From assembly GCA_030611265.1 (NCBI GenBank), contig JAUWQD010000026.1, positions 1-35,819 of the forward strand: a DNA stretch of 35,819 nucleotides, read 5' to 3'. Positions within the stretch are counted from its first letter, which is position 1; the number at the start of each line of letters is the position of its first letter. A program made the position numbers and the translations under genes. Shown here piece after piece: positions 2,611 to 30,746 of the stretch. Source of the DNA: Methanosarcinaceae archaeon (GTDB taxonomy: Archaea > Halobacteriota > Methanosarcinia > Methanosarcinales > Methanosarcinaceae). The notes under the pieces are model-generated. The model was given only the letters and a program-made list of their open reading frames with translations, searched no databases and was not told the DNA's origin.

Positions 2611-3690
2611 GTGAGACTTAACACAATTCAGTTTTTTACAAACTCATCATACATGATGAGTATCATCTTCATACCCCTATTCGCAGAGTCTCTTGGAGCC
2701 ACGTACTTTGAGATCGGGCTGATCAGTGCGATCTTTGGTGCAACATCTTTTCTCTCGTCGTTCATATTCGGCAAAGCGGCAGACATCCATCGTCTCAAAA
2801 GCGTTGTCATTTTTGGTCTGTCAGTATCTGTGGTAGCATTCTTTTTGCAGATATTTGCATACGATCCACTCTCACTTGCGATCACAAGAGGGTTTGCAGG
2901 ATTTAGCGTAGGAATGTATCCTGCTGCACTTATCGCATATGTGCATTACCAAAAGCGCAGCATAGGTAAGTTTAGCTCATTCGGGGCACTTGGCTGGATG
3001 GCAGGATTCCTGCTGGCAGGACTTATCGGGAACATCATCTACCTGTTCGCGCTATCCTCACTTTTCTACTGCTTTGCACTGGTAAGCGCCCTGCGAATGG
3101 AAGATATTGAAAGACCCACGATCCATGTAACATATTTCTCAATTGACACATTCGTAAGTAACATTGGCACATACCTGTCTTTTTTTCTACGCCATAGCGG
3201 TGCGGTGGCTGTGTGGACAATATTCCCGCTCTATCTCGTATCACTCGGGGCAAACACATTCTGGATAGGAACTCTCTATGCGATCAATCCGGCAGTACAG
3301 TTTTTGGTAATGCGCCGGCTTGATGGGTTTAGGAACGAACAGATCATTGTCTGGGGGTACCTTCTTTCTGCATTCGCGTTCGCAAGTTACGCCATTGTCC
3401 CGAATTATTTTTTAATCATCCCGGGAATGATCGTGGTAGCATGTTCGTGGTCTTTCCTCTACGTTGGCTCAAACCAGTTACTTGTTGAGCGCAACATCGA
3501 CAAGGCAACTGCCGCAGGTCTTTTCAATTCCATGATCGGTGGTTCGGGAATTGTGGGTGCACTCATGGGCGGAATACTGTTGCAATTCTATGGCTTTGTG
3601 GCAGTTTTTATAGGTGCATCCGGTCTTTCGCTGCTTAGCTTTGTCATTTTCAGGTTATTTGACAAAACGCAGGCTCAGGAATTTTCTTAA
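2611..3690 (+). CDS. Major facilitator superfamily transporter
   Basis: A 359-residue, almost wholly hydrophobic protein with about 11-12 membrane segments. The MFS A-type loop between helices 2 and 3 is recognisable (FGKAADIHRLKSVVIFG, around residues 53-69), giving the superfamily but not the substrate. I use the GTG at 2611. No Shine-Dalgarno is visible, but an AT-rich TATA-like stretch (GAAATAAAG, ~2582-2590) lies about 25 nt upstream, which would suit a leaderless message. Somewhat short for MFS (usually 390-420). It is followed 41 bp later by kptA, which appears to have its own promoter. Transport of a small molecule or drug efflux is possible; I cannot decide. Confidence 0.8.
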   Translation: MRLNTIQFFTNSSYMMSIIFIPLFAESLGATYFEIGLISAIFGATSFLSSFIFGKAADIHRLKSVVIFGLSVSVVAFFLQIFAYDPLSLAITRGFAGFSVGMYPAALIAYVHYQKRSIGKFSSFGALGWMAGFLLAGLIGNIIYLFALSSLFYCFALVSALRMEDIERPTIHVTYFSIDTFVSNIGTYLSFFLRHSGAVAVWTIFPLYLVSLGANTFWIGTLYAINPAVQFLVMRRLDGFRNEQIIVWGYLLSAFAFASYAIVPNYFLIIPGMIVVACSWSFLYVGSNQLLVERNIDKATAAGLFNSMIGGSGIVGALMGGILLQFYGFVAVFIGASGLSLLSFVIFRLFDKTQAQEFS

Positions 3691-3699
3691 CAAGATATA

Positions 3700-3711
3700 T
3701 TAACAATAAAA
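3700..3711 (+). promoter_or_regulatory. TATA box for kptA, likely leaderless transcript
   Basis: An AATAAAATAC-type box is centred about 26 nt upstream of the kptA ATG, with no Shine-Dalgarno between. In archaea this spacing places the transcription start at or next to the start codon. Confidence 0.4.
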
Positions 3712-3731
3712 TACAACTGAAATAAGATATC

Positions 3732-4361
3732 ATGATTCGCAAATGTAATGAGCATGGATACTTCAGGGGTCACGAATGTCCCGAATGTGGAGAAAACGGC
3801 AGGTATGTGCTGGATGATGACCGCGAAGAGAGACTTGGAAGATTCATTTCCGGCGCGCTCAGGCATTTCCCTGAAGATGTAGGTCTTGAAATGGATATGC
3901 AGGGCTGGGTTGACCTTGATCTTCTGTGCGACATCATGGAAAGTCGGTACAGGTGGGCAACAGAGGAGCGTCTGACATCTCTTATCGAATCTGATATAAA
4001 AAGAAGATATGAAACCGATGGCTCACGTATAAGGGCAAGATATGGTCACTCCGTTAATGTTGACCTGGATTATCCGGGTAATGAATTTGCATATCTTTAC
4101 TACGGTGCCAGTTTAGAAGAGATTGACATGCTTTTGGAGAATGGCATTGTGCCAATACGCCAGCGATATGTTCATCTTAGTACATCATACAGAAAAGCAA
4201 ATGAAGCCGCATCGGTACATTCTGAAAACCCGGTTGTGATCGAGGTTGATGCAGAAACTGCACAGCAGGACGGTCTCTTTTTCATGGCAGTGAATGATGA
4301 TATTGTTCTGACAGATAACGTGCCTCCAGAGTACTTGAGTATTGTAGAGGCACAAGAGTGA
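3732..4361 (+). CDS. kptA: RNA 2'-phosphotransferase (Tpt1/KptA family)
   Basis: A 209-residue enzyme that transfers the 2'-phosphate left by certain RNA ligations to NAD+, releasing ADP-ribose 1'',2''-cyclic phosphate (family knowledge). Residues 1-20 form an archaeal zinc ribbon (Cys5, His8, Cys16, Cys19). The KptA core follows: the helix LGRFISGALRHFPE with the Arg-His pair at 44-45, IRARYGHSV (residues 100-108, catalytic His106), LYYGAS (122-127) and Arg residues near 143-145 before HLS. Length and motif order match the family. Archaea lack the fungal-type tRNA ligase that makes the classical substrate, so the natural substrate is uncertain. It converges on rtcA with only 9 bp between the stop codons. 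Confidence 0.9.
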   Translation: MIRKCNEHGYFRGHECPECGENGRYVLDDDREERLGRFISGALRHFPEDVGLEMDMQGWVDLDLLCDIMESRYRWATEERLTSLIESDIKRRYETDGSRIRARYGHSVNVDLDYPGNEFAYLYYGASLEEIDMLLENGIVPIRQRYVHLSTSYRKANEAASVHSENPVVIEVDAETAQQDGLFFMAVNDDIVLTDNVPPEYLSIVEAQE

Positions 4362-4370
4362 TATTTCACA

Positions 4371-5381
4371 TCACTTTATCGATACTTCAATGGACTCATC
4401 GATCTTTTGTATATTGAACTTCACATCAAGGAACTGTTCAGTTACCCAGATGTTCGTCAGCGTATGCTGTGACAGTTCCCGCACTGTATAAGACCCAAAC
4501 CCAGATTTGCAAAACCCCATATATGGTATCAACTGGTCGGCAAGGTGCACATCGACTGATGCACCAAAACGCAGTTCTTTGAGTATTTCCTTGGCAGCAT
4601 TCCTGCCAACTTTTTCAGCAGGCAAGCCACGTTTACCAAGTGCACTCCCGCCAAGCAGTCCGCACCACATAGTAATCCCGCTGCCTGTTGAGCGGCATGT
4701 CACACATTCGGTATCGATCTCACAGTCAAATCCCGCCCCTGTGATCAATGAGGCGGCTGAATCCGCCTGCCGCTCCGCCACATGTTCGGGCAGGTTTGCG
4801 CAATGGGAGATGCCGTATATCTTCCCCTTTCCGATCTCTTTCGTAAGATCAAAACCTTTGAGTTTGGAAGGTTTGAGATGTGCACGCACCCGCCCCCCGC
4901 CTTTTGGATAATAACCGCGCGCAAGGAGTTCGATTTCACACTCATATCCCATCTTTGACAGTGCCCGGGCGGTTATGTGTTTCAGGTAATCGATGGGTGG
5001 GGACCATGCTACATCCGTACCACCCGTAATGGTCAATTCAATATCGCCAGGAGCGCAGGCTGCGGCAGGCATGATACACTGGAGAAGAAGCGAGATACTT
5101 CCCGCAGTTCCGATATCGACCTCAAGTTTAACGTTGCCCCCCCTTAAATCCAGTGGAGAGAACGTAATATCGGTCGAGCCGATCGAAAGTCCTGTCACAT
5201 CAGCATCGCACAACAGGGCAGCCGTTTCTATCGCTTTTATGTGTTGTGCCTTCAAACCTGGCTTGGGGCGGTTCTTTCGTATATTGTTGACTCTGACATC
5301 CTCACCGGTCACCGCGGACAGGGACACGGCAGTCCTGACGATCTGCCCGCCCCCTTCTCCGTATGAACCGTTGATCTCAAT
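4371..5381 (-). CDS. rtcA: RNA 3'-terminal phosphate cyclase
   Basis: Converts RNA 3'-phosphate ends to 2',3'-cyclic phosphates through an enzyme-AMP intermediate (family knowledge). The conserved N-terminus IEINGSYGEGGGQIVRTAVS is present in frame, and the C-terminal SQHTLTN motif carries the expected adenylated histidine. The problem is the start. The first in-frame ATG/GTG/TTG is GTG at 5327, which would drop the glycine-rich motif, and a stop lies upstream of 5395. In-frame ATT (5381) or ATC (5384) are the only codons that keep the whole fold. Alternatively, the ATG at 5392 would give MGNIIEINGSYGEG if one G were added to the GGG run at 5388-5390. A TATA box 28 nt before 5392 favours that ATG. 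From 5381 the length is 336 aa, normal for RtcA. Confidence 0.85.
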   Translation of the reverse strand: MEINGSYGEGGGQIVRTAVSLSAVTGEDVRVNNIRKNRPKPGLKAQHIKAIETAALLCDADVTGLSIGSTDITFSPLDLRGGNVKLEVDIGTAGSISLLLQCIMPAAACAPGDIELTITGGTDVAWSPPIDYLKHITARALSKMGYECEIELLARGYYPKGGGRVRAHLKPSKLKGFDLTKEIGKGKIYGISHCANLPEHVAERQADSAASLITGAGFDCEIDTECVTCRSTGSGITMWCGLLGGSALGKRGLPAEKVGRNAAKEILKELRFGASVDVHLADQLIPYMGFCKSGFGSYTVRELSQHTLTNIWVTEQFLDVKFNIQKIDESIEVSIK

Positions 5382-5412
5382 GATATTCCCATCTCCTACA
5401 TATTTTTATAGT

Positions 5413-5430
5413 ATATAATTTATAAAATTA
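5413..5430 (-). promoter_or_regulatory. TATA box for rtcA
   Basis: The minus strand carries TTTATAAATTATATAC, centred about 28 nt upstream of the out-of-frame ATG at 5392. This fits a leaderless transcript beginning there. A second AT-rich TATA-like stretch (5401-5410) lies too close to serve that start. Confidence 0.4.
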
Positions 5431-5436
5431 TGTACT

Positions 5437-6813
5437 TCAAGTAAATCCGACCGGAGGGAGGATTTTCTTGTGTGCATCCTCGACCGCATACATGATCGGG
5501 TCGATCAACATGGACACCGGGGGCGCGTAGCATGTTTCCATTTCCAGCATCTCATCGATGGTTGCTTTCTTTTTAATTGCGAATGCAAGTCCGTCAATGC
5601 GCTCTTTGACTCCCTCTCCAGCGATTATCTGTGCACCCACCAGATACCTGTCGCTGAATATTAGTTTGATGAATATCTGGCTGCCACCTGGATAATACCC
5701 GGCACGCGTCAAGCCTTTTGATATTCCTGTTATAACCTTTTTACCACTTTTTCCGGCACTTTGGCTTGTAATCCCCACTGCTCCGATCTGAAGATTTCCG
5801 GCAACGCATATCCATGGATTTGTTATTGCACCAAAGGTTGAATGTATGCCACATAGGTTATCTCCGATCACGGCAGCCATTCGCCGTGCAGTGCTCCCAA
5901 GTTGGCTTACAAAAGGCTCGCCGGTCGTAAGATCATAGACCTCTGCGCATTCGCCACCTGAAAAAACATCAGGGTGGAATCTATCTCCGACTTTTACCTG
6001 CAAATGCTCGTTTACCACAATGCCATTGCTCTCTCCGATCTCAATTCCTGCGTCCTGTGCAAGTGAGGTTTCAGGCATCACACCTGTAGATATGAGCACT
6101 ATATCAGTGGGAATATCGTTATTGTCAATGATGACAGATTCAACTTTTGTGGTGCCGTTCATGGATTCGGGCACAGTGTCGGTTATGACATCTACACCCA
6201 TTGACACAAGATGCGACCGCACGATCTCGGACATGTCCGAGTCAATGTTGCGTGAGAGGAGTGAGTAGTTGCGGTTCACAAGTGTTGTGTTGATCCCAAG
6301 TTTTGCCGCAGAGGCTGCAACTTCGACACCGATCGAGCCGCTGCCTACAATTGTCAGGTCAGTGCCGGTTTCAAGTGAATTCTGGATATTCATGCCATCA
6401 GATAAGGTGCGAAGTGTAAACACATTATCAAGTTTGATGTAGGGTTTGATGTTGTCAGGTATGTGTGTGCGACTTCCGGTCGCGATCACAAGTTTGTCAA
6501 AAGGAAGTATCTCATCGCCGACATGGATAGTTTTAGAATCAATGTCAATTGCATTGACTGTGGTGTTAAGTCTAACATTGATCCCCATCTGTTCGAAGAA
6601 TTCGGGGCTTCTTACAATTAGCGCATCAAAATCCTTGATCTCACCACCAAGTACGAACGGCATTCCGCACTGGCTGTATGCGGTGTGTGTGTCTTTTGAT
6701 ATGACTGTGACAGAATAGTTCCCATGGCGCTGTGTGTGTGTTGCAACTGCCATTCCAACAGCACCACCGCCGATGATCACAAGTTTTTGACGTTGGGTTG
6801 TTTTTTCATCCAT
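5437..6813 (-). CDS. FAD-dependent pyridine nucleotide-disulfide oxidoreductase (CoA-disulfide reductase / NADH oxidase type)
   Basis: A 458-residue flavoprotein. The FAD-binding GGGAVG is at residues 15-20, an active-site cysteine in SQCGMPF at Cys49, the second FAD motif ATGSR at 111-115, and the NAD(P)H-binding GSGSIG at 157-162. The dimerisation domain fills the last ~120 residues. A single cysteine after a Ser-x-Cys-Gly-Met-Pro motif, with no CxxxxC pair, puts it with CoA-disulfide reductases, NADH oxidases and NADH peroxidases. These enzymes reduce CoA disulfide, oxygen, peroxide or polysulfide, and sequence alone does not separate them. In a strict anaerobe, oxygen or thiol-stress defence is the natural guess. 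Single gene, not in an obvious operon. Confidence 0.85.
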   Translation of the reverse strand: MDEKTTQRQKLVIIGGGAVGMAVATHTQRHGNYSVTVISKDTHTAYSQCGMPFVLGGEIKDFDALIVRSPEFFEQMGINVRLNTTVNAIDIDSKTIHVGDEILPFDKLVIATGSRTHIPDNIKPYIKLDNVFTLRTLSDGMNIQNSLETGTDLTIVGSGSIGVEVAASAAKLGINTTLVNRNYSLLSRNIDSDMSEIVRSHLVSMGVDVITDTVPESMNGTTKVESVIIDNNDIPTDIVLISTGVMPETSLAQDAGIEIGESNGIVVNEHLQVKVGDRFHPDVFSGGECAEVYDLTTGEPFVSQLGSTARRMAAVIGDNLCGIHSTFGAITNPWICVAGNLQIGAVGITSQSAGKSGKKVITGISKGLTRAGYYPGGSQIFIKLIFSDRYLVGAQIIAGEGVKERIDGLAFAIKKKATIDEMLEMETCYAPPVSMLIDPIMYAVEDAHKKILPPVGFT

Positions 6814-18705: not shown

Positions 18706-20193
18706 TTATGTCACAATTATTTCTTTTTGATTAACTATGAGCAAAATATTTTCAGATGTGCTATTGATAATCACGCCCACCTGATTGATACTTTTATTAG
18801 ATATGTCAGTACAATTTGCTGTTGTAGTATTTACGTACTCTCCCAAGTCGGAGAAGTACGAATACCACAAATCATACAACAATTCAGATGTTGTATTCTT
18901 AGTGATGGTCACGTTATTAGTAAACCCGCTTGCATAATACGAACCGTCCAATTTCGTCTGGATCGTCTCAATACCATTCCCGCCTGCCTGATAATCGCCC
19001 TGCAGTACTGTAGTCTTTAAGTTAAGTATCAGGTTGTTTTTCGAATCATTGTTAACATATATCGGTCCACCATCGACCTTGAACACCGCCCCATCATTCT
19101 GATTCAGTATTATCGCACCGCTGTCATAGATGTACGACTGGTCAACAAAAAAGTTGTAGTCAGAACGAAGCGTCAGCGTCCCGCCGCCAATTGTCATCCC
19201 ATTTATATCCGGCGTGGTCCCACCAATCGTGTCTGTGGTGGTGTTGTAGCGAAGGGTCATGTTGCTTTCTAATATCCTATCATAGGTAGTGTAATAGAGG
19301 TTGTAGGTACCGTCATCGGGCTGTTTCATATAGTACTGGGTTAAGTTATGAAGAGATGTTGTATTGGTTACAAAATAATCAATATTATCTATTGTAACTG
19401 GGGGCGAGTCGGCGTATTCAAGTTCCAGTGTTGTTGTGGGAGCTAACAAATTTATATTCAGATATGTATAATCGGTGTTATTAGTCAAATTGAGGCCATT
19501 GACAGATCCAGTTTCAATAGCAGATATTGCCCAAGTGGATCCCCATCTTTCGATATTACCGTAATTGTCTATGTATTCAATTCTGATTCTCAAGTGGGTT
19601 CCCTGATTCCGCCACCTTCCGCCAGACTCTGTGTCTGTGTCGCCCACCTCTTCAATAATTATTTTTATTTTGTCTGGCGTATCACTCTGCAGTTCGAAAA
19701 TAAAACCATCAGAAAGGGAAAGAGATGTAACAGTCTTTTTATAAATATATGTATAAGTGGTATCCAAAGTAAAATTAATAGTAAATTGGGTTATCGGCGC
19801 ATCCTGGCTGAGGTTTAAGTCCTTCACAGTTAAGAAATCCCCTTCCCCAAAACCCGGTAGTGGTCGCTTGATCTCGGTCGTCAGTGTCATCGATGCAGCG
19901 CTGCTGTTCACTTCGAGATGTCCAACGGAGTTCGTGTTGGAGATGAACGGCATATCATCCGTGCCGAGCTTGATCGTTGTAGATTTTGGATACTCGCCTG
20001 CATTTTCGATCTGTTTGCTGAGGTCTATGAATGTATCGAACAATTCGTCGCTGTGTGCGGATTCTGCATTACCTTCGTATACCGGGACCCATGAGGATGT
20101 AACGACTGACATGAATGTCACGAGCACTGCCAGTATAAGTATCGAACCAACCACTACGGATACTGCATCATCGTTTTTGATCAGGTCTTTCAT
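18706..20193 (-). CDS. Large archaeal type IV pilin-like surface protein
   Basis: 495 residues. The N-terminus KDLIKNDDAVSVVVGSILIL is a class III signal peptide: charged leader, then a hydrophobic helix of about 20 residues (the pilus core) that prepilin peptidase would process near DDAVS. The rest is a Thr/Asn/Ser-rich, beta-strand-rich extracellular part with many N-x-S/T sites, consistent with a glycosylated pilin or minor adhesive pilin. It starts one nucleotide inside the end of the upstream pilin gene (TAATG), so the two are one transcription unit. No pilus ATPase or membrane platform gene lies nearby; assembly would use machinery coded elsewhere. Confidence 0.75.
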   Translation of the reverse strand: MKDLIKNDDAVSVVVGSILILAVLVTFMSVVTSSWVPVYEGNAESAHSDELFDTFIDLSKQIENAGEYPKSTTIKLGTDDMPFISNTNSVGHLEVNSSAASMTLTTEIKRPLPGFGEGDFLTVKDLNLSQDAPITQFTINFTLDTTYTYIYKKTVTSLSLSDGFIFELQSDTPDKIKIIIEEVGDTDTESGGRWRNQGTHLRIRIEYIDNYGNIERWGSTWAISAIETGSVNGLNLTNNTDYTYLNINLLAPTTTLELEYADSPPVTIDNIDYFVTNTTSLHNLTQYYMKQPDDGTYNLYYTTYDRILESNMTLRYNTTTDTIGGTTPDINGMTIGGGTLTLRSDYNFFVDQSYIYDSGAIILNQNDGAVFKVDGGPIYVNNDSKNNLILNLKTTVLQGDYQAGGNGIETIQTKLDGSYYASGFTNNVTITKNTTSELLYDLWYSYFSDLGEYVNTTTANCTDISNKSINQVGVIINSTSENILLIVNQKEIIVT

Positions 20194-20633
20194 TATAGCA
20201 ACTCCTTTGATGGCAGGTGTACGATCATAAGATCGGAATTATTTGTATCAAGTAGCGTAATAGTTGTCCCAATCTTCCAAATCCCGGTATTGTTTATCTC
20301 GGAATCGGTTGTGTTGAAGGCTTCCACACCACTTGCCATGAATTTAAGGTCGGATACTTTGACCTGCTCGCCGCCCATGTGGGTGAGGTCTAAATTTGCT
20401 CCATTGATCTCAATGGTATAACTCACATGTGGAACATCTGCTGGCGGTTTCATGCCAAATATGGCACCGGCAATAATAGCTGCCATAATAACAGTAATTG
20501 CAACCATCAAGATGTTGCCTACAACGTCGGAAACACCGCATTCATCAAGAAAAAGTAATATTTTTTGTTTGCTTGCTGGATGTCGATTCTTTCCGTTATT
20601 GACATCTTTGCAGTATCCATTTTTGTAAGACAT
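20193..20633 (-). CDS. Archaeal type IV pilin N-terminal domain protein
   Basis: 146 residues with a long basic leader (~30 residues), then GVSDVVGNILMVAITVIMAA, a typical archaeal pilin processing site and core helix. The C-terminal ~90 residues form a small beta domain (Pilin_N/DUF1628-like; SYTIEINGANLDLTHMGGEQ). The leader is longer than usual, so the true start could be further in, but no better internal start is evident. First gene of a two-gene pilin unit. Confidence 0.78.
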   Translation of the reverse strand: MSYKNGYCKDVNNGKNRHPASKQKILLFLDECGVSDVVGNILMVAITVIMAAIIAGAIFGMKPPADVPHVSYTIEINGANLDLTHMGGEQVKVSDLKFMASGVEAFNTTDSEINNTGIWKIGTTITLLDTNNSDLMIVHLPSKELL

Positions 20634-21621: not shown

Positions 21622-21689
21622 CCTAACAATGGTAGGGTAGATTATTAACATACCTAATTCTATTAAGATTAGGAGTGCCTAAATATAAG
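21622..21689. promoter_or_regulatory. feo operon promoter with DtxR-type palindromes
   Basis: Perfect TTAGG-AGTG-CCTAA at 21669-21682 abuts the TATA box AAATATAAG (21681-21689). CCTAA at 21653-21657 pairs with the same TTAGG across 11 nt. A further near-palindrome CCTAAC-AAT-GGTAGG is at 21622-21636. TTAGG...CCTAA is the half-site pattern of DtxR/IdeR-family iron regulators, and a DtxR-family gene ends this cluster. Binding over the TATA box would repress under iron. Confidence 0.6.
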
Positions 21690-21759: not shown

Positions 21760-21990
21760 ATGCGTTTAAACGATACGAATCTCTTACAAATAAAACCGGA
21801 TGAACCCGCCAGAATTGTAGATATTGGCGGAGGTCACGGGATCAGACAGAAACTGAACCTCAGGGGAATCTCTGAGGGCAGTATCGTGCGTGTGATATCC
21901 ACCAACGGTCCGATAACCATCGAAGTCGATCGAAATGTCCTTTCGATCGGGCGTGGGATGGCACAAAAAATAAGAGTTACTAGAGTGTGA
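21760..21990 (+). CDS. feoA: FeoA family protein (first copy)
   Basis: 76 residues, an SH3-like FeoA domain: PARIVDIGGGHGIRQKLNLRGI, SEGSIVRVIS, then GPITIEVDRNVLSIGRGMAQKI. FeoA binds FeoB and supports ferrous iron uptake (family knowledge). AAGGTG lies about 9 nt before the ATG. First gene of the operon, followed after 4 nt by a second feoA. Confidence 0.9.
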   Translation: MRLNDTNLLQIKPDEPARIVDIGGGHGIRQKLNLRGISEGSIVRVISTNGPITIEVDRNVLSIGRGMAQKIRVTRV

Positions 21991-21994
21991 TCGA

Positions 21995-22222
21995 ATGGAA
22001 AAGAAATTATCTGAGATGGAATACGAAGAAGAAGGAACCGTAACAGACATTGAAGGAACACTACGAAAAAAGGTGGCTGGAATGGGCATCAGGGTTGGCA
22101 AAAGGCTGAAGATGATCACAAAACAGCCGGTGAAGGGTCCGGTAGTTGTGGTCGTCGATGAGGCAAGCACCTCCCTTGGACTGGATGTAGCAGAAAAGAT
22201 CAGTGTGGAGATGAAATCATGA
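21995..22222 (+). CDS. feoA: FeoA family protein (second copy)
   Basis: 75 residues. The SH3-like core EEEGTVTDIEGTLRKKVAGMGIRVGKRLKMI and VKGPVVVVVDEASTSLGLDVAEKI matches FeoA but diverges from the first copy, so the two likely have distinct roles instead of being a recent duplication. A GTGATC site lies just before the ATG. It overlaps the next gene by 4 nt (ATGA). Confidence 0.85.
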   Translation: MEKKLSEMEYEEEGTVTDIEGTLRKKVAGMGIRVGKRLKMITKQPVKGPVVVVVDEASTSLGLDVAEKISVEMKS

Positions 22223-22746
22223 AAGTCTTGCTGATGGGACACCCGAATGTGGGCAAAAGCGTATTCTTCAACCGTTTGACAGGGGCGAATGTCACTGAGT
22301 CGAATTACCCCGGGACCACAGTTGACTTTACGAAAGGATATATGAAGGTTGGTGGTGAGGATGCTGAACTGATAGATGTACCAGGTACATTCTCTCTAGA
22401 TCCGAAGGATAAAGCAGAAGAGGTTGCTGTGGCAATGCTACACGAAAACAAAGATGCGAAAATAATCTGTGTTATCGATGCATCCAAAATAGAACGCGGG
22501 GTTTATCTGGCACTGGAAATTCTTGAGGAAGGATATTCAATGGTAATCGCACTCAATATGTGGGATGCTGCAGTTGATAAAAATATCCTGATCGATATCA
22601 ATAACCTGCAGCGGATACTTGGCGTTCCAGTAGTTTCGACTGTCGCAATCAGCGGCGAAGGGATCAAGGAACTCACATTAAAGCTGAAAGAGGCTAAACC
22701 CATTAAAATCGACGACATTATCAAGAACGCGGGAGGCCTGACATGA
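22219..22746 (+). CDS. FeoB GTPase domain as separate protein
   Basis: 175 residues, only the G domain of FeoB. G1 GHPNVGKS (7-14), G2 YPGTT (~30-34), G3 DVPG (53-56), G4 NMWD (~112-115) and the G5-like VAISGEGI are all present. In ordinary FeoB this domain is followed by a helical GDI region and then the membrane part in one chain of 650 residues or more. Here the chain ends at residue 175 (KIDDIIKNAGGLT) and the membrane part starts in the next gene, with stop and start overlapping as ATGA. GGAG lies 8 nt before the ATG. It presumably powers or gates Fe(II) transport by associating with the next product. Confidence 0.9.
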   Translation: MKVLLMGHPNVGKSVFFNRLTGANVTESNYPGTTVDFTKGYMKVGGEDAELIDVPGTFSLDPKDKAEEVAVAMLHENKDAKIICVIDASKIERGVYLALEILEEGYSMVIALNMWDAAVDKNILIDINNLQRILGVPVVSTVAISGEGIKELTLKLKEAKPIKIDDIIKNAGGLT

Positions 22747-23957
22747 AACTGACTATTGATCAGCGCTGGGATATTATCGATAAGATCGCAAAACAAACCG
22801 TGACATTTGGAGAATACAGGCATACCTTAAAGGATGCGATCGGAGAACTTACGATCAAGCCGTTCACAGGCATACCCATTGCGATTGCGGTAATGTATGC
22901 TTTCTGGAGCATATTCGGTTCATTCGCAGGAACACTGTTCACCGATGGATTCATGGTCAAGCTGTTTGATGGATATTTTCTCCCGTGGATGCAGGATGTT
23001 TTTCCTGGTGCAGGAGGATGGTTGTATTATATCATAGTTGGTGATCCCCTGGCAAACAACTCTTTCGAGGCGTTTGGTATGCTGACATCAGGGCTCTTCG
23101 TTGCCATCGGCGTTGTCCTGCCTGCTATATTCATATTCTACCTGATGCTTGCGTTACTGGAAGATATGGGATACATGCCAAGACTCGCTGTGCTCATTGA
23201 TACCGTGCTGCACAGGATCGGTCTGCACGGGTATGCGATCGTGCCAACGATCCTTTCCCTGGGATGCAATGTACCTGGCGTAACAGCAACGAGAATTCTC
23301 GAAACGAAAAAACAGCGGTTCATAATGATGACGCTGCTCGCGATCTTCATTCCATGCGGCGCCCAGATCGGAATCATGGAGGAAGTGATCCCGGATACGA
23401 TGGGCTGGGTTTTGCTCTACCTGATCATAGGATACTTCATTTTTGGTTACATCCTGAATAAGATCGTTCCCGGGAAATCTCCTGAGTTTTTGATCGATGT
23501 ACCGCCCTACAGAAAACCGATGCTAAGCAATCTTGTGAAAAAGGTGTGGGGTCGAATTGCAGGATTCTTTAAGGTTGCGATTCCCTTCGTGCTGCTCGGC
23601 TGCGGGATCGTGAACGTTCTATATCTTGCAGGATTTATTGATTGGGTTGGTAATGTTCTCTCACCGGTCTTTGTCGTCTGGTTCGGCGTACCAGAGGCGA
23701 CTGCTGGTCCATTGATCGCAGCATTCCTGAGAAAAGACCTCGCAGTTGCACAGCTGTCCGTGATCGAGATGACACCATACCAGATGATCTCGGCAGTAGT
23801 ACTTGTCTCGATATACTTCCCGTGCGTGGCAACGTTTGCAATGATGATCAAGGAAGGGGCGAAAGAGATGTTAGGAGCTATGGCTGTTCTTTTTACGGTG
23901 GTCTTCCTCTATGGTGGTTTGATACACCTGATAGGGATACTGCTGGGGGTGGCGTAA
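22743..23957 (+). CDS. feoB: FeoB membrane (permease) part as separate protein
   Basis: 404 residues, starting with a short cytosolic helical segment (IDKIAKQTVTFGEYRHTLKD) and then the FeoB core of about eight or nine membrane helices. The two Gate domains carry the conserved SLGCNVPGVTATR and FIPCGAQIG, and later FLRKDLAVAQLSV and YFPCVATFA; the cysteines are those implicated in the Fe(II) path. No GTPase domain is attached. GGGAGG precedes the ATG, which overlaps the GTPase gene by 4 nt, so coupled translation should give equal amounts of the two halves. Confidence 0.93.
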   Translation: MKLTIDQRWDIIDKIAKQTVTFGEYRHTLKDAIGELTIKPFTGIPIAIAVMYAFWSIFGSFAGTLFTDGFMVKLFDGYFLPWMQDVFPGAGGWLYYIIVGDPLANNSFEAFGMLTSGLFVAIGVVLPAIFIFYLMLALLEDMGYMPRLAVLIDTVLHRIGLHGYAIVPTILSLGCNVPGVTATRILETKKQRFIMMTLLAIFIPCGAQIGIMEEVIPDTMGWVLLYLIIGYFIFGYILNKIVPGKSPEFLIDVPPYRKPMLSNLVKKVWGRIAGFFKVAIPFVLLGCGIVNVLYLAGFIDWVGNVLSPVFVVWFGVPEATAGPLIAAFLRKDLAVAQLSVIEMTPYQMISAVVLVSIYFPCVATFAMMIKEGAKEMLGAMAVLFTVVFLYGGLIHLIGILLGVA

Positions 23958-24398
23958 ATGGCTGAAAGATCAATTGCTGCCATCTACTTTGCCATACTCG
24001 GCATCATCACCACGGCATTCGGCATTGCAGATATACTGGTCACAATGGGAGCAGGTAGTTTCGCCTTCGGGATACTTGAGATACCAGGTAACCTGTTCAG
24101 AGGTGTATGGGGCGGATTTATTGTGCTGTCTGCGGGGCTCTTCTATCTATCCGGCATCCGGAATTTTGAAAATATCCATCAGTTTTCAAAGATCGTGATG
24201 GGAAGCATACTGATCTGGATCATGGCAGGATGCGACATATTTGCGATGATCACGGAATCAATACCCGGCGGTGAGGATGGACCATGGTTCAACACACTCA
24301 ATGGATTCATTGGAACGTATGCACCGCCTTATGCGCCGGCAGTGTTATTGCTGCCATTCTCACTCGTGGTGGTCTATTACATCTACAAAAGGAAATAG
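23958..24398 (+). CDS. Four-helix membrane protein of the feo operon
   Basis: 146 residues with four predicted membrane helices (about residues 5-30, 45-68, 78-100, 125-142) and a short Lys-rich C-terminus (YIYKRK). Not recognised. It begins directly at the base after the feoB stop (TAAATG) with a GGGGGTGG ribosome site inside feoB, so it is part of the operon. Its fixed place between feoB and the Cys-rich protein suggests an accessory to the transporter. Confidence 0.7.
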   Translation: MAERSIAAIYFAILGIITTAFGIADILVTMGAGSFAFGILEIPGNLFRGVWGGFIVLSAGLFYLSGIRNFENIHQFSKIVMGSILIWIMAGCDIFAMITESIPGGEDGPWFNTLNGFIGTYAPPYAPAVLLLPFSLVVVYYIYKRK

Positions 24399-24420
24399 AA
24401 GATCTAAAGGTGATAATAGT

Positions 24421-24678
24421 ATGGCTGCGATGAAGAAGGTACTATCAGGAGTTGTGAAAGGAGGTACTATCGACGCGCTCGCCAAAGAGATGGATATGAA
24501 TATATCCACTCTCCTGGCGATGATCGATTTCCTAGCAAGTGATGGATATCTGGAAATAACAGGGTTGCAATGCTCTTGCCAGACTTCAAACCTGTGCGAA
24601 AAATGCTGCGGCCCTAAAAACGATTCACAAACAAAGATGTATGCGTTGACAATGAAGGGTGAACAGTTCCTTTCCTAA
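24421..24678 (+). CDS. Small winged-helix protein with Cys cluster (FeoC-like)
   Basis: 85 residues: a winged-helix part (GTIDALAKEMDMNISTLLAM ... LASDGYLEI) followed by CSC-x5-C-x2-CC (Cys51, 53, 59, 62, 63) and a short C-terminal strand. FeoC proteins are small winged helices with clustered cysteines that can hold an Fe-S cluster and regulate FeoB; the layout here fits although the identity is low. AAGGTG is about 8 nt before the ATG. Last gene of the feo transcription unit. Confidence 0.75.
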   Translation: MAAMKKVLSGVVKGGTIDALAKEMDMNISTLLAMIDFLASDGYLEITGLQCSCQTSNLCEKCCGPKNDSQTKMYALTMKGEQFLS

Positions 24679-24744: not shown

Positions 24745-25203
24745 ATGCTAACTCGAAAAGGTGAAGACTATCTCGAAGCAATCCTCAATGTCACAGAAGA
24801 CAAGGGATATGCCAGAATAAAGGACATAGCTGTTGCTCTGGACGTTAAGTCGCCAAGTGTTGTTGAAATGGTCAAGAAACTTGATAAAATGAGTTTTGTT
24901 GTGTACAGGAAATATGACGGTATAACACTGACCGAAAAAGGACGAGAGATTGCTTTAATCATAAAGGATCGGCACGATACCCTGAAGGCCTTTCTGGAGA
25001 TCATAAAAGTACCTGAAAAAATTGCAGAGAAGGATGCATGCACAATGGAGCATGAACTGGATGAAACTACGACAAAACAGATTAAAAATCTGGTTAATTT
25101 TGTAAAATCCGCGCCAGAATATCCTCAGTGGCTCAAGTATTTTGAACAATTTTGCACGACAGGAAAGCATCCATGTGAGGAAAAGACTCACAGATTGAAG
25201 TAG
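24745..25203 (+). CDS. DtxR/MntR-family metal-dependent transcriptional regulator
   Basis: 152 residues: an N-terminal winged helix (RKGEDYLEAILNV, VKSPSVVEMVKKL, YDGITLTEKGREIA) and a dimerisation/metal-sensing domain with MEHELDE (His-Glu ligands) and a Cys at DACTM, typical of DtxR/MntR/IdeR proteins. No C-terminal SH3/FeoA-like domain. Likely an Fe(II) or Mn(II) sensor that represses the feo operon just upstream. It has its own promoter and a palindrome at its start, so autoregulation is likely. Which metal is sensed is not decided by the sequence. Confidence 0.88.
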   Translation: MLTRKGEDYLEAILNVTEDKGYARIKDIAVALDVKSPSVVEMVKKLDKMSFVVYRKYDGITLTEKGREIALIIKDRHDTLKAFLEIIKVPEKIAEKDACTMEHELDETTTKQIKNLVNFVKSAPEYPQWLKYFEQFCTTGKHPCEEKTHRLK

Positions 25204-25481: not shown

Positions 25482-25494
25482 GATATATAATATA
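25482..25494 (+). promoter_or_regulatory. TATA box for ycaO-tfuA
   Basis: GATATATAATATA, centred about 27 nt upstream of ATG 25515. This is the reason for preferring that start over ATG 25494, which lies inside the box. Confidence 0.45.
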
Positions 25495-25514
25495 TGCAAG
25501 AACGTTTGCTAACC

Positions 25515-26795
25515 ATGACCGAGATAATCATTGATGAGTCACTGTCCTATATCGACGGCACCCAGAGAGTGCACGACGGAGAAACAACCCTTAAAAACGC
25601 CAAGAGCCAACTTAAGACAATAGGTGTCACCCGTATTGCAGACATAACCGATCTTGACAGGATCGGGATACCAGTATTTTCCACTATTCGACCAAGTGCT
25701 GCCAAAGGTGGAATTTCCATCTATTCCGGAAAAGGTGCAAACCCTGATCAGGCAAGGATCTCTGCGATGATGGAAGGTTTTGAGAGATGTCTTGCTGAAA
25801 GAGCAGGTACCAATGAGAATATCGATACCGACATTTCAGCTCCAATGATTATAAAAACACTTGAAGAAGCATTTAATGATCACAATATACTTGACCCAAA
25901 ATCACTACTTTTACCGGAACCCCTCGTACCTGATAAATTAGTTGACTGGACAGGAGGATGGGACCTGCTGAAAAACGAAGAAATATTTGTCCCTTCAAAT
26001 GCCGTTTATCACCCATACAACGAACCAGGGCAATGTGTGAAACTCTTCAGAAGCAACACCAATGGTCTTGCAGCAGGAAATGTAATGGAAGAGGCAATAT
26101 TCCACGGATTGCTGGAAGTTATCGAGAGGGACGCTTTGAGTAGTGCCGAGTTCAACAGGGTTACGGGAAAAGAACTCATTCTTACTGAGAACGATGGAAG
26201 TAATTATGAACTTATTCAGAAGTTCAAAAAAGCAGATGTGGAAATCAAACTTTGGGTGCTCCAGCATGATACCAATGTCACAACAATCGTTGCCGTTACT
26301 GATGACATTAAATTAAAGGATGCGGCAATGCTTGTCATGGGTGCAGGTTCGCATTTAAAACCTGAAATTGCAGTCAGTCGGGCAATCACCGAAGCCGCCC
26401 AATCAAGAGTTGTGCAAATTCATGGAGCACGTGAGGACACAGACCGTGAAAAATTTGTGCGTAACATCGGATACGAACGGATGAAGCGGATGAACAAGTT
26501 CTGGTATGAGGATAAAGAGACTATATCACTTGATGAGATTAAAGATATCTCAACAGCAACACCGGCAGGAAACATTCAAATTGTACTTGATCAACTTAAA
26601 AACCTTGTTGATAATGTTGTTGTGGTTGACCTGTCAAGAGAAAATATGAACGTGCCTGTTGTGCGCGTAATCATTCCAACATTTGAACTATACACCCTTG
26701 ATCGCGAACGTGTTGGTAAGCGAATGAAGTTAGTGAAAAGGCAAAAGCTGGCAAAGGAAGACAGACCGTGGAGAAGGAAAAGAGGACCACTATGA
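25515..26795 (+). CDS. ycaO: YcaO-domain protein, probable McrA thioamidation enzyme
   Basis: 426 residues. YcaO proteins use ATP to activate a backbone amide and install sulfur. The ATP-binding pattern is visible: SAAKGGISIYSGKG, QARISAMMEGFERCLAER (E-x3-E-R type) and EAIFHGLLEVIERDAL (E-x3-E). Paired with TfuA in methanogens it forms the thioglycine of methyl-coenzyme M reductase (established for Methanosarcina). The C-terminus (RPWRRKRGPL) is basic, lacking the proline-rich tail of azoline-forming YcaOs. The end overlaps the tfuA start by 4 nt (ATGA), so translation is coupled. The start follows from the TATA position and the lack of a Shine-Dalgarno. Confidence 0.9.
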   Translation: MTEIIIDESLSYIDGTQRVHDGETTLKNAKSQLKTIGVTRIADITDLDRIGIPVFSTIRPSAAKGGISIYSGKGANPDQARISAMMEGFERCLAERAGTNENIDTDISAPMIIKTLEEAFNDHNILDPKSLLLPEPLVPDKLVDWTGGWDLLKNEEIFVPSNAVYHPYNEPGQCVKLFRSNTNGLAAGNVMEEAIFHGLLEVIERDALSSAEFNRVTGKELILTENDGSNYELIQKFKKADVEIKLWVLQHDTNVTTIVAVTDDIKLKDAAMLVMGAGSHLKPEIAVSRAITEAAQSRVVQIHGAREDTDREKFVRNIGYERMKRMNKFWYEDKETISLDEIKDISTATPAGNIQIVLDQLKNLVDNVVVVDLSRENMNVPVVRVIIPTFELYTLDRERVGKRMKLVKRQKLAKEDRPWRRKRGPL

Positions 26796-27460
26796 ACAAA
26801 GTACTCCGCCCCATCGTATTTGCAGGCACAAGTATCAGCCACGAAGACGCAAAAGAGATACTTGATGTCAATGTTAAGTATAGCCGACCTGTTTTTAGGT
26901 GTGATATCCAAAAGGCTGTCCAAAAAGGGTACAATGTTATAGGAATTATTGACGGCATCTTTTTTGACAAGACAGCAGTTGCCCACAAGGAAATTATCAA
27001 AGCAATCAAATCTGGAGTTATCGTTGTAGGGGGTTGCAGTATGGGAGCACTCCGCGCGTCCGAACTCGATACTTATGGAATGATAGGTGTCGGTAAGATA
27101 TATGAATGGTATCGCGACGGTGTGATCGAAGCCGATGACGAGGTGGCTGTGGCTACCAATCCGGACACTTTTGAGCCGGTATCAAATCCGATGGTGAACA
27201 TAAGGGAAACCTTGAATGCGGCATGTGACGAGGGGATTATCGATAGCGGCACCCGTGATTCGTTGATGAGAATTGCGAAAGGGACGCATTATACTGAAAG
27301 GACTTATTTTGGAATAGTTAAACAGGGTGTCAAAGACGGGGTTCTGTCATCCGATGTTGGAGATGTGCTTGTTGGATACTGCAAAGAGCACGAAGTTGAC
27401 GTTAAACGCAATGATGCGATTGCGGTTCTTGAGAAGATTAAAGAGATACTTGACTCATAA
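26792..27460 (+). CDS. tfuA: TfuA-like protein, YcaO partner
   Basis: 222 residues with the TfuA core: VFAGTSISHEDAKEIL, YNVIGIIDGIFFD, VVVGGCSMGALRASELDTYG and MIGVGKIYEWYRDGVIEADDEVA. TfuA is thought to deliver sulfide or assist YcaO in thioamide formation; together they modify a glycine of McrA. ATG 26792 sits in the ycaO stop (ATGA overlap), preferred to an upstream GTG at 26768. It converges with the radical SAM gene 32 bp later. Confidence 0.9.
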   Translation: MNKVLRPIVFAGTSISHEDAKEILDVNVKYSRPVFRCDIQKAVQKGYNVIGIIDGIFFDKTAVAHKEIIKAIKSGVIVVGGCSMGALRASELDTYGMIGVGKIYEWYRDGVIEADDEVAVATNPDTFEPVSNPMVNIRETLNAACDEGIIDSGTRDSLMRIAKGTHYTERTYFGIVKQGVKDGVLSSDVGDVLVGYCKEHEVDVKRNDAIAVLEKIKEILDS

Positions 27461-27492: not shown

Positions 27493-28458
27493 TCAAACCG
27501 CCCTGTAATACTTTCCATCCTCTGCTGTTATCTCTACGATCTCCTTTTTCCCAAGCAAATCATCGATGATACCCGCAAGATCTTTTGCATCAATCTCAAG
27601 TGCGGAACTAATCTGATCAACAGTGCACGGTCTTCGTAGTATCAGGTCATAGACCTCATCCCGCATATTCCCGTGTTTGATACCGGTGATTTTTCTGCGA
27701 AGCCCTTTAAAGACCAGTCTGACCTTCTCCCTGCCCAATGCATCATCGAACTTTTGTGCAATCTCGGTAAGCCTCTGCTGCGAAACTGGGATAATAAAAT
27801 CCTCAGCAGGCGGTCTGCTCACAGTAAATACCTCTACCACATCGGGATTGATGAACTTTACTGCCTGTATCAATTCATCGACCGCCCGGTCATTGATATT
27901 GGTTGGATAATCCTTTTTGGAATCAACAAAAAGAACTTCGATCTCAAGTCTTGGACCCGTGCCTTTCAGTGCTTTTAATCCATGGATAATATCGTCAAGC
28001 CTGATTCCCGATACGGGGCGATTGATTGCCTTGAATGTTTTTTCATCCCCGGCTTCGAGGGTAGCGACTACCAGATCGGCTTGCGCCAGATTGTCCCTTA
28101 CATCCTTCCTGCTGACAAGAGATGAATTGGTGATCACACAAATAGGAACATTGCTGATCTTCCTTACTTCACGGATCATCTCACCAAGTGCAAGGTTGAG
28201 TGTGGGTTCCCCGGTTCCTGAAAAAGTAATGTAATCAAGCTGTTTTACTTTCTTGAGATGGTTTTTCAACCCCTCCACAACCTCTTCAGTTGAGACTCCG
28301 CAGACGTCTTCCGGGCCTGATACTTTCTTATCCGTGCATCCAAGTTGACAGTAGACACAGTCAAAATTACAGGTCTTTTCAGGACCTGTGATGTCAATCC
28401 CGAGTGAGCGTCCAAGCCGTCTTGATGGAACCGGACCGTAGATTATTCTTTGTTTCAT
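27493..28458 (-). CDS. Radical SAM protein (COG0731-type) with winged-helix tail
   Basis: 321 residues. CNFDCVYC gives the Cys30-x3-Cys34-x2-Cys37 [4Fe-4S]/SAM motif. TFSGTGEPTLN is the following SAM-binding glycine motif. The C-terminal ~65 residues (MRDEVYDLILRRPCTVDQIS ... LLGKKEIVEI) are a winged helix. It resembles the COG0731 group, which includes wyosine-related and uncharacterised enzymes; the reaction is not known. I chose ATG 28458 (MKQRIIYGPVPSRRLGRSLG), the family-typical start, over an in-frame ATG at 28512. A partial copy lies at 30181-30746. Convergent with tfuA; a link to McrA modification is possible but unsupported. Confidence 0.85.
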   Translation of the reverse strand: MKQRIIYGPVPSRRLGRSLGIDITGPEKTCNFDCVYCQLGCTDKKVSGPEDVCGVSTEEVVEGLKNHLKKVKQLDYITFSGTGEPTLNLALGEMIREVRKISNVPICVITNSSLVSRKDVRDNLAQADLVVATLEAGDEKTFKAINRPVSGIRLDDIIHGLKALKGTGPRLEIEVLFVDSKKDYPTNINDRAVDELIQAVKFINPDVVEVFTVSRPPAEDFIIPVSQQRLTEIAQKFDDALGREKVRLVFKGLRRKITGIKHGNMRDEVYDLILRRPCTVDQISSALEIDAKDLAGIIDDLLGKKEIVEITAEDGKYYRAV

Positions 28459-28513
28459 TATAGTAGTATCCTTAACATCATGGTTTTTCTTTGTTTCGTT
28501 TTCAAATCGCACT

Positions 28514-29326: not shown

Positions 29327-29666
29327 TTAGTCAATAACCTGACACCTCCCTACGATCCTTGTGAGAAATGCCATAACCGTTGCAACAACTATGGTGAAGA
29401 TGACAACAAACCCAGCCCTCCTTTTGCCGAATTCCCGTATCAAAACAGCAATGGTTGAAAGGCAGGGTACATAGAATGTCACGAAAACCACGAAGGTCAT
29501 AATCTGGGTGTTGCTCATCACATCAAGCAAACGGGAAGTTCCCAGAGCCTATGAGTATGACCATTGCGAGTTCTTTTCCCTGGATGCCAAAGATGAGCGC
29601 TGTACCTACAAACCACAGGAAGTAAAGACGTAAGGGAATACAGGGTCTGATCAACCACTGCATCCA
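29327..29666 (-). pseudogene. C-terminal remnant of a second FeoB
   Basis: In one frame (from about 29666) the strand reads KWMQWLIRPC, LYFLWFVGTALIFG and IQGKELAMVILIGSG, the FeoB second Gate region. Near 29541-29550 the frame shifts and continues as GTSRLLDVMSNTQIM, TFVVFVTFYVPCLSTI and AVLIREFG to the stop at 29327. Only the last ~110 residues remain; the G domain and first Gate are gone. It resembles conventional FeoB more than the split FeoB at 22743. It ends 30 bp before the DJ-1 gene and 15 bp after the GYD gene. Confidence 0.75.
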
Positions 29667-30180: not shown

Positions 30181-30746
30181 CTGCCCAATGCATCATCGAA
30201 CTTTTGTGCAATCTAGGTAAGCCTCTGCTGCGAAACTGGGATAATAAAATCCTCAGCAGGCGGTCTGCTCACAGTAAATACCTCCACCATATCCGGATCA
30301 ATGAACTTTAGTGCCCGCATCAATTCATCGACCGCCCGGTCACTGATATTGGTTGGATAATCCTTTTTGGAATCGACAAAAAGAACTTCGATCTCAAGTC
30401 TTGGACCCGTGTCTTTCAGTGCTTTTAATCCATGGATAATATCGTCAAGCATGATTCCCGATACGGGGCGGTTGATTGCCTTGAATGTCTTTTCATCCCC
30501 GGCTTCAAGGGTAGCGACCACCAGATCGGCTTGCGCCAGATTATCCCTGACATCCTTCCTGCTGACAAGGGAGGAATTGGTGATTACACAAACAGGAACA
30601 TTGCTAATCTTCCTTATTTCACGGATCATCTCACCAAGTGCAAGGTTGAGTGTGGGTTCCCCGGTTCCTGAAAAAGTAATGTAATCAAGCTGTTTTACTT
30701 TCTTGAGATGGTTTTTCTTTGTTTCGTTTTCAAATCGCACTAAGAA
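30181..30746 (-). pseudogene. Partial, deleted copy of the radical SAM gene
   Basis: Copies 27731-28518 in direct orientation at about 95% identity by eye. A 222-bp stretch (28268-28489 in the parent) is missing between two ATGGTTTTTC repeats, which fuses the upstream leader to codon HLKKVKQLDYITF in frame and removes the whole Cys-x3-Cys-x2-Cys motif. A nonsense change (GAG to TAG at about 30213) ends the frame before the winged helix. Non-functional as a radical SAM enzyme. The left end begins at CTGCCCAATGC without its remaining 3' part. Confidence 0.85.

Follow-up and report, generated by a model that had tools for sequence, protein, structure and literature searches.

Seven genes run head to tail on the (+) strand of the window, by which we mean the whole stretch of 35,819 nucleotides that was analysed. 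They encode two FeoA proteins (FeoA1 and FeoA2), a FeoB G domain, a FeoB membrane domain (TM), a four-helix membrane protein (4TM), a FeoC-like winged helix and a DtxR-type repressor, and they are preceded by a putative operator:

21669..21682, (+): putative DtxR/IdeR-like operator palindrome TTAGGAGTGCCTAA, the sole match to TTAGGNNNNCCTAA in the window
21760..21990, (+): feoA1, 76 aa (PF04023 FeoA, 1e-14, above cut-off)
21995..22222, (+): feoA2, 75 aa, a divergent second FeoA (PF04023 FeoA, 5.4e-15, above cut-off)
22219..22746, (+): FeoB G-domain protein, 175 aa, without GDI domain (PF02421 FeoB_N, 7e-49)
22743..23957, (+): FeoB membrane-domain protein (TM), 404 aa, Gate-FeoB_C-Gate (PF07670, 2e-29, in two stretches; PF07664, 6e-11)
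23958..24398, (+): four-helix membrane protein (4TM), 146 aa (AlphaFold2 fold; adjoins the FeoB membrane gene in homologs)
24421..24678, (+): FeoC-like, Cys-rich winged helix, 85 aa (PF09012 FeoC, 0.0035, below cut-off)
24745..25203, (+): DtxR/IdeR-type metal-dependent repressor, 152 aa (PF01325, 1.2e-18; PF02742, 7.4e-17)

When the ORF coordinates were re-read, the first six genes of the original prediction were found as described, head to tail with small gaps or overlaps, and Pfam agreed with its assignment of two FeoA proteins, a FeoB G domain and a membrane part with two Gate domains; the seventh gene had been overlooked. From feoA1 through the winged helix gene the intergenic gaps are +4, -4, -4, 0 and +22 nt, and the DtxR gene, the final member of the conserved cluster, begins 66 nt past the winged helix gene. 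The cut in FeoB does lie at an ATGA overlap, with the TM start at 22743 inside the G gene that ends at 22746 (-4 nt), and a GGAGG stands 6 nt 5' of the TM start codon. The source organism belongs to the ANME-3 group of anaerobic methanotrophs and is not a methanogen in the usual sense.

The repressor has both the DNA-binding and the metal-binding domain of the DtxR/IdeR type (PF01325 and PF02742), and its position is kept in homologous operons. The palindrome TTAGG-N4-CCTAA occurs once in the window (0.03 expected by chance), 78 nt 5' of the feoA1 start codon and next to an AT-rich, TATA-like stretch; exact copies lie upstream of several homologous operons, as compared with 0.8% of random windows. 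The putative operator and the DtxR gene together would fit autoregulation. Two accessory proteins had originally been left unrecognised. This still holds for the 4TM but not wholly for the winged helix, which scores 17.9 bits against PF09012 FeoC (cut-off 21) and of whose homologs seven of eight match at E up to 0.1 (best 3.4e-5). Like members of the FeoC family, it belongs to a feo operon and combines a small winged-helix fold with a Cys-rich wing; it differs from them in its Cys spacing and in falling under the Pfam cut-off.

Conservation of the two-gene FeoB

With the 404-aa TM protein as query against 60 related genomes, stand-alone relatives at 79-97% identity were found in the same genus, in one other genus of the family (represented by one genome, assembled in two contigs) and in three further families of the order. 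Gene maps give the order feoA1-feoA2-G-TM-4TM at almost every one of these loci, usually followed by the FeoC-like gene and DtxR. A scan of 84,980 named genomes yielded 80 loci, 75 of them with a two-gene FeoB, from ANME-1 (Methanophagales), ANME-2, ANME-3, Candidatus Argoarchaeum, Ethanoperedens, Methanothrix, Methanoculleus and other Methanomicrobiales, Altiarchaea, Dehalococcoidia, Caldisericota and a few others; ethane oxidisers are among the bearers. The homologs come mostly from metagenome-assembled genomes, and the split locus is also present on a contig of a Methanoculleus isolate; Methanoculleus sp. FWC-SCC1 has feoA1-feoA2-G-TM-4TM. Bins labelled Deltaproteobacteria or Omnitrophota whose loci are almost identical to archaeal ones (e.g. 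L064, 97%) were treated as likely contamination, and Dehalococcoidia and delta sequences, which form supported clades of their own, were retained. The search for the same gene order proposed with the original prediction therefore found both order and split recurring across species; neither a single intact FeoB at this locus in close relatives nor a loss of the overlap on resequencing was encountered. In other archaea of the phylum (L179, L189), two diverged copies of the split operon stand in tandem on a single contig.

FeoB normally consists of a single chain, and rare FeoA-FeoB fusions that have only the G domain and no membrane part have been called possible sequencing errors (PMC8980893); both points would favour a sequencing error, a frameshift or a decaying pseudogene that cuts one FeoB gene. 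The junctions argue otherwise. The genes overlap by 4 nt at 35 of the 75 split junctions, and the remainder range from -34 to +18 nt, including positive gaps, -17 and -20; three junctions are larger or irregular, and there the membrane ORF appears broken or cut. Relative to the G gene, the membrane gene is found in frames 0, 1 and 2, and nearly all membrane-gene starts are preceded by a purine-rich, Shine-Dalgarno-like stretch. Comparison with two relatives gives dN/dS values of 0.09-0.12 (G), 0.09-0.16 (TM) and 0.09-0.11 (4TM), indicating that selection on the split FeoB is purifying. Because the same cut recurs in dozens of independent genomes, some of them in one contig, with clean junctions in three frames, separate ribosome-binding sites and purifying selection, and because the GDI segment is missing altogether, not just shifted out of frame, sequencing error is excluded and an error or pseudogene has practically no chance of accounting for the cut. 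Programmed frameshifting or read-through could yield a fused FeoB from overlapping genes, and the ATGA overlap at 35 junctions and the true fusions within the clade would suit it; however, the positive gaps, the -17 and -20 overlaps, the use of all three frames and the ribosome-binding site before the second start point to translational coupling, not to one frameshift mechanism, and make this explanation very improbable. We conclude that the comparison of genomes supports the predicted working two-part FeoB, found across archaea and in some bacteria, and that the cut is, on this evidence, a genuine, widely conserved design and not a sequencing error.

The motifs of FeoB are distributed over the two proteins. 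G1-G4 are present in nearly all homologs of the G protein, and of the membrane proteins 71/71 have PCxA and FPCxAT and 66/71 have GCNVP, so that the GTPase motifs described as intact in the window, and the pore cysteines, are kept in nearly all copies. Against the FeoB equivalog model TIGR00437 of NCBIfam, G scores 174.9 bits and TM 164.7 bits, each under the cut-off of 315.65, which is what a single FeoB divided between two proteins should give. The G and membrane domains that make up FeoB in one polypeptide are encoded by separate genes in the window and at the 75 named loci.

The GDI domain of FeoB was not found in either protein. Specifically, the G protein matches FeoB G domains in the PDB at 4e-31 over residues 3-155 only, and it aligns just to the G part (about residues 3-167) of solved NFeoB chains, which are up to 285 aa long and carry a further helical GDI part. 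In ordinary FeoB this domain connects the G domain to the membrane domain, and both FeoB parts lack it. The linker measures 6-33 aa in fused members of the clade (588-612 aa) as compared with 101-179 aa in most ordinary FeoB examined. The same kind of short link, 5-16 aa, is present in GDI-less single-chain FeoB of related archaea (572-587 aa; L054, L055, L115, L122 and L025), which differ from the window proteins in being one chain and in having no 4TM neighbour that we could find. The short links in both groups mean that loss of the GDI domain is older than, or independent of, the split.

In a first tree of 63 membrane domains, all 4TM-bearing sequences fall into one clade (100/99), whose neighbours are a divergent split pair (L053) and three of the GDI-less single-chain proteins (L054, L115 and L122), nearest relatives outside the clade in the trees. 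Fused members are nested within the split clade at two places, one a delta-proteobacterial group (L094, L102, L120 and L124) and the other two archaeal genomes (L171 and L172). A second tree implies at least five changes of FeoB arrangement, the exact order of which is unsure because of long branches. Because fused forms are nested among split ones, the halves appear to work joined or apart, and the strongest argument for one functional unit is that close relatives have them in both states. In a model of the natural fusion of L102 (588 aa), with split halves as alignment rows (pLDDT 81.6, pTM 0.73), the G domain is followed directly by the helical membrane domain; its best PDB matches are FeoB G domains, and a search of the PDB for sequence relatives of the FeoB membrane domain gave none at E up to 0.001. 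Two FeoA genes also precede the naturally fused FeoB at L094, L102 and L120. Because the same pair stands beside an uncut FeoB, we reject the earlier suggestion that the two FeoA proteins bridge the FeoB parts. The L053 pair (3470-5537), a second and strongly diverged split FeoB of the same genus, lacks an immediately adjacent FeoA and has a shortened, likely 4TM relative upstream (E 0.004).

The four-helix membrane protein

The original prediction could name no family for the 4TM, and we find none: the window protein matched no Pfam or NCBIfam family, and 42 members gave no significant Pfam match. AlphaFold2 predicts four long helices (pLDDT 87, pTM 0.80), for which a Foldseek search of the PDB gave no match at E up to 0.001; generic four-helix proteins came on top (E 0.19). 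A CD20/FcepsilonRI-beta-like identity was considered and set aside (best E 0.19, TM-score 0.55, not significant).

The gene neighbourhood of the 4TM is strict. Searched for from both directions, it lies directly 3' of a FeoB membrane gene of this clade in 141/141 copies examined, a count in which some loci are the same genome present in two collections; the adjoining membrane genes are split in 136 cases and fused in 7. It was found in 50 of 393 genomes of the window's phylum, in 6 of 197 of a sample of the class Dehalococcoidia and in 2 of 198 of a delta-proteobacterial phylum sample. Because the 4TM accompanies fused FeoB too, its purpose is not merely to hold two halves together. A role in rejoining the halves, or as a substitute for the GDI domain, is weakened by its presence after fused forms and by our not finding it beside the GDI-less single-chain relatives outside the clade. 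The 4TM, an undescribed and strict genetic partner of this FeoB clade, is the main novelty of this system. Most likely it is a subunit or an obligatory assembly factor of this type of pore, although it may instead serve stability without being a stable subunit. We see an even chance that it is an integral third pore subunit and that the Feo transporter is a hetero-oligomer whose gating in trans falls to a free GTPase lacking the GDI domain.

A candidate two-chain metal importer

We consider it probable that the operon encodes a Feo-type importer, most likely for ferrous iron, with a two-chain, GDI-less FeoB whose G protein acts in trans and with the 4TM as third subunit or assembly factor. The free G-domain protein would bind and hydrolyse GTP and act on the separate membrane protein, which would hold the complete Gate-FeoB_C-Gate pore. 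As in other Feo systems, the G domain is the probable target of FeoA1 and FeoA2. The FeoC-like protein probably modulates activity or stability, and repression of the operon when metal is plentiful probably falls to the DtxR protein, via TTAGG-N4-CCTAA.

Two other readings accept two chains but differ on the substrate or on the G protein. The importer could be FeoB-like but carry a divalent metal other than iron (manganese, cobalt or nickel): regulators of the DtxR family respond to Fe or Mn, and the same genome has an ordinary 663-aa FeoB (L005, 360-3030), preceded by a 233-aa gene that is an apparent DtxR-FeoA fusion, so that one of the two systems could serve another metal. The FeoC-like gene, the pore cysteines and the FeoA genes are, however, hallmarks of Feo, and we regard another metal as rather unlikely. 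Alternatively, the free G protein might serve as a sensor or regulator alongside FeoA and DtxR without gating the membrane protein, given that it is physically separate and that the signal-passing GDI domain is missing; natural G-TM fusions in the same clade and the place of the G gene directly 5' of TM in split operons speak against this, and we hold it to be improbable. The importer gated in trans by its G protein remains our preferred reading.

Compared with canonical FeoAB(C), the system shares the G domain with G1-G4, the Gate-FeoB_C-Gate membrane domain, FeoA, a FeoC-like protein and metal-responsive control; it differs in that FeoB is two proteins without GDI domain, in the second FeoA and in the extra 4TM. 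FeoA-FeoB fusions such as FeoAB of Bacteroides fragilis likewise show that Feo parts can be fused or separated, and very few of them lack the GDI domain (PMC8980893), but the rearrangement is the opposite one, with parts joined there and cut here. In Helicobacter pylori the feo genes also lie apart in the genome, but there feoA and feoB are apart and the FeoB protein is intact (PMC10353542). For Asgard archaea, a transporter survey notes in passing a likely association of FeoB with GTPases whose genes lie close by (PMC7997004). Two Feo surveys (PMC8749426 and PMC8351635) make no mention of a FeoB split between G and membrane domains, and we found no published description of one in the open-access literature. 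Some genomes of Methanomicrobiales and Methanothrix are reported to lack FeoB (PMC8351635), and iron-uptake surveys of methane-cycling archaea that rely on whole-length FeoB may miscount it, such absences being a potential example. Methanothrix thermoacetophila and Methanolacinia petrolearia are two species reported to be without FeoB. How GTP hydrolysis relates to Fe(II) movement is an unresolved question in the FeoB field because switch and pore share one chain; the natural separation without a GDI link makes it possible to purify, mutate and recombine each part, and the system adds a conserved membrane partner that lacks any family model.

A second copy of the operon is binned in the same genome (L004; G000:C72, 727-4503) and shares 96.7% identity over 3.8 kb with a contig from another family's genome (G044); it may be a recent transfer or a mis-binned contig. 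Elsewhere in the window, a 67-aa ORF at 29327-29530 (-) matches the C-terminal part of ordinary FeoB (2e-08) and is an apparent FeoB remnant. At 25494-27460 (+), YcaO (4.8e-87) adjoins TfuA (1.7e-48), a kind of pair known in methane-cycling archaea to thioamidate methyl-coenzyme M reductase. A radical-SAM-like gene at 27493-28512 (-) has a truncated, near-identical copy about 2.5 kb off at 30213-30740 (-), a recent partial duplication, and 18706-20633 (-) encodes an archaeal type IV pilin-like protein (PF07790) and then a large DUF7289-like surface protein.
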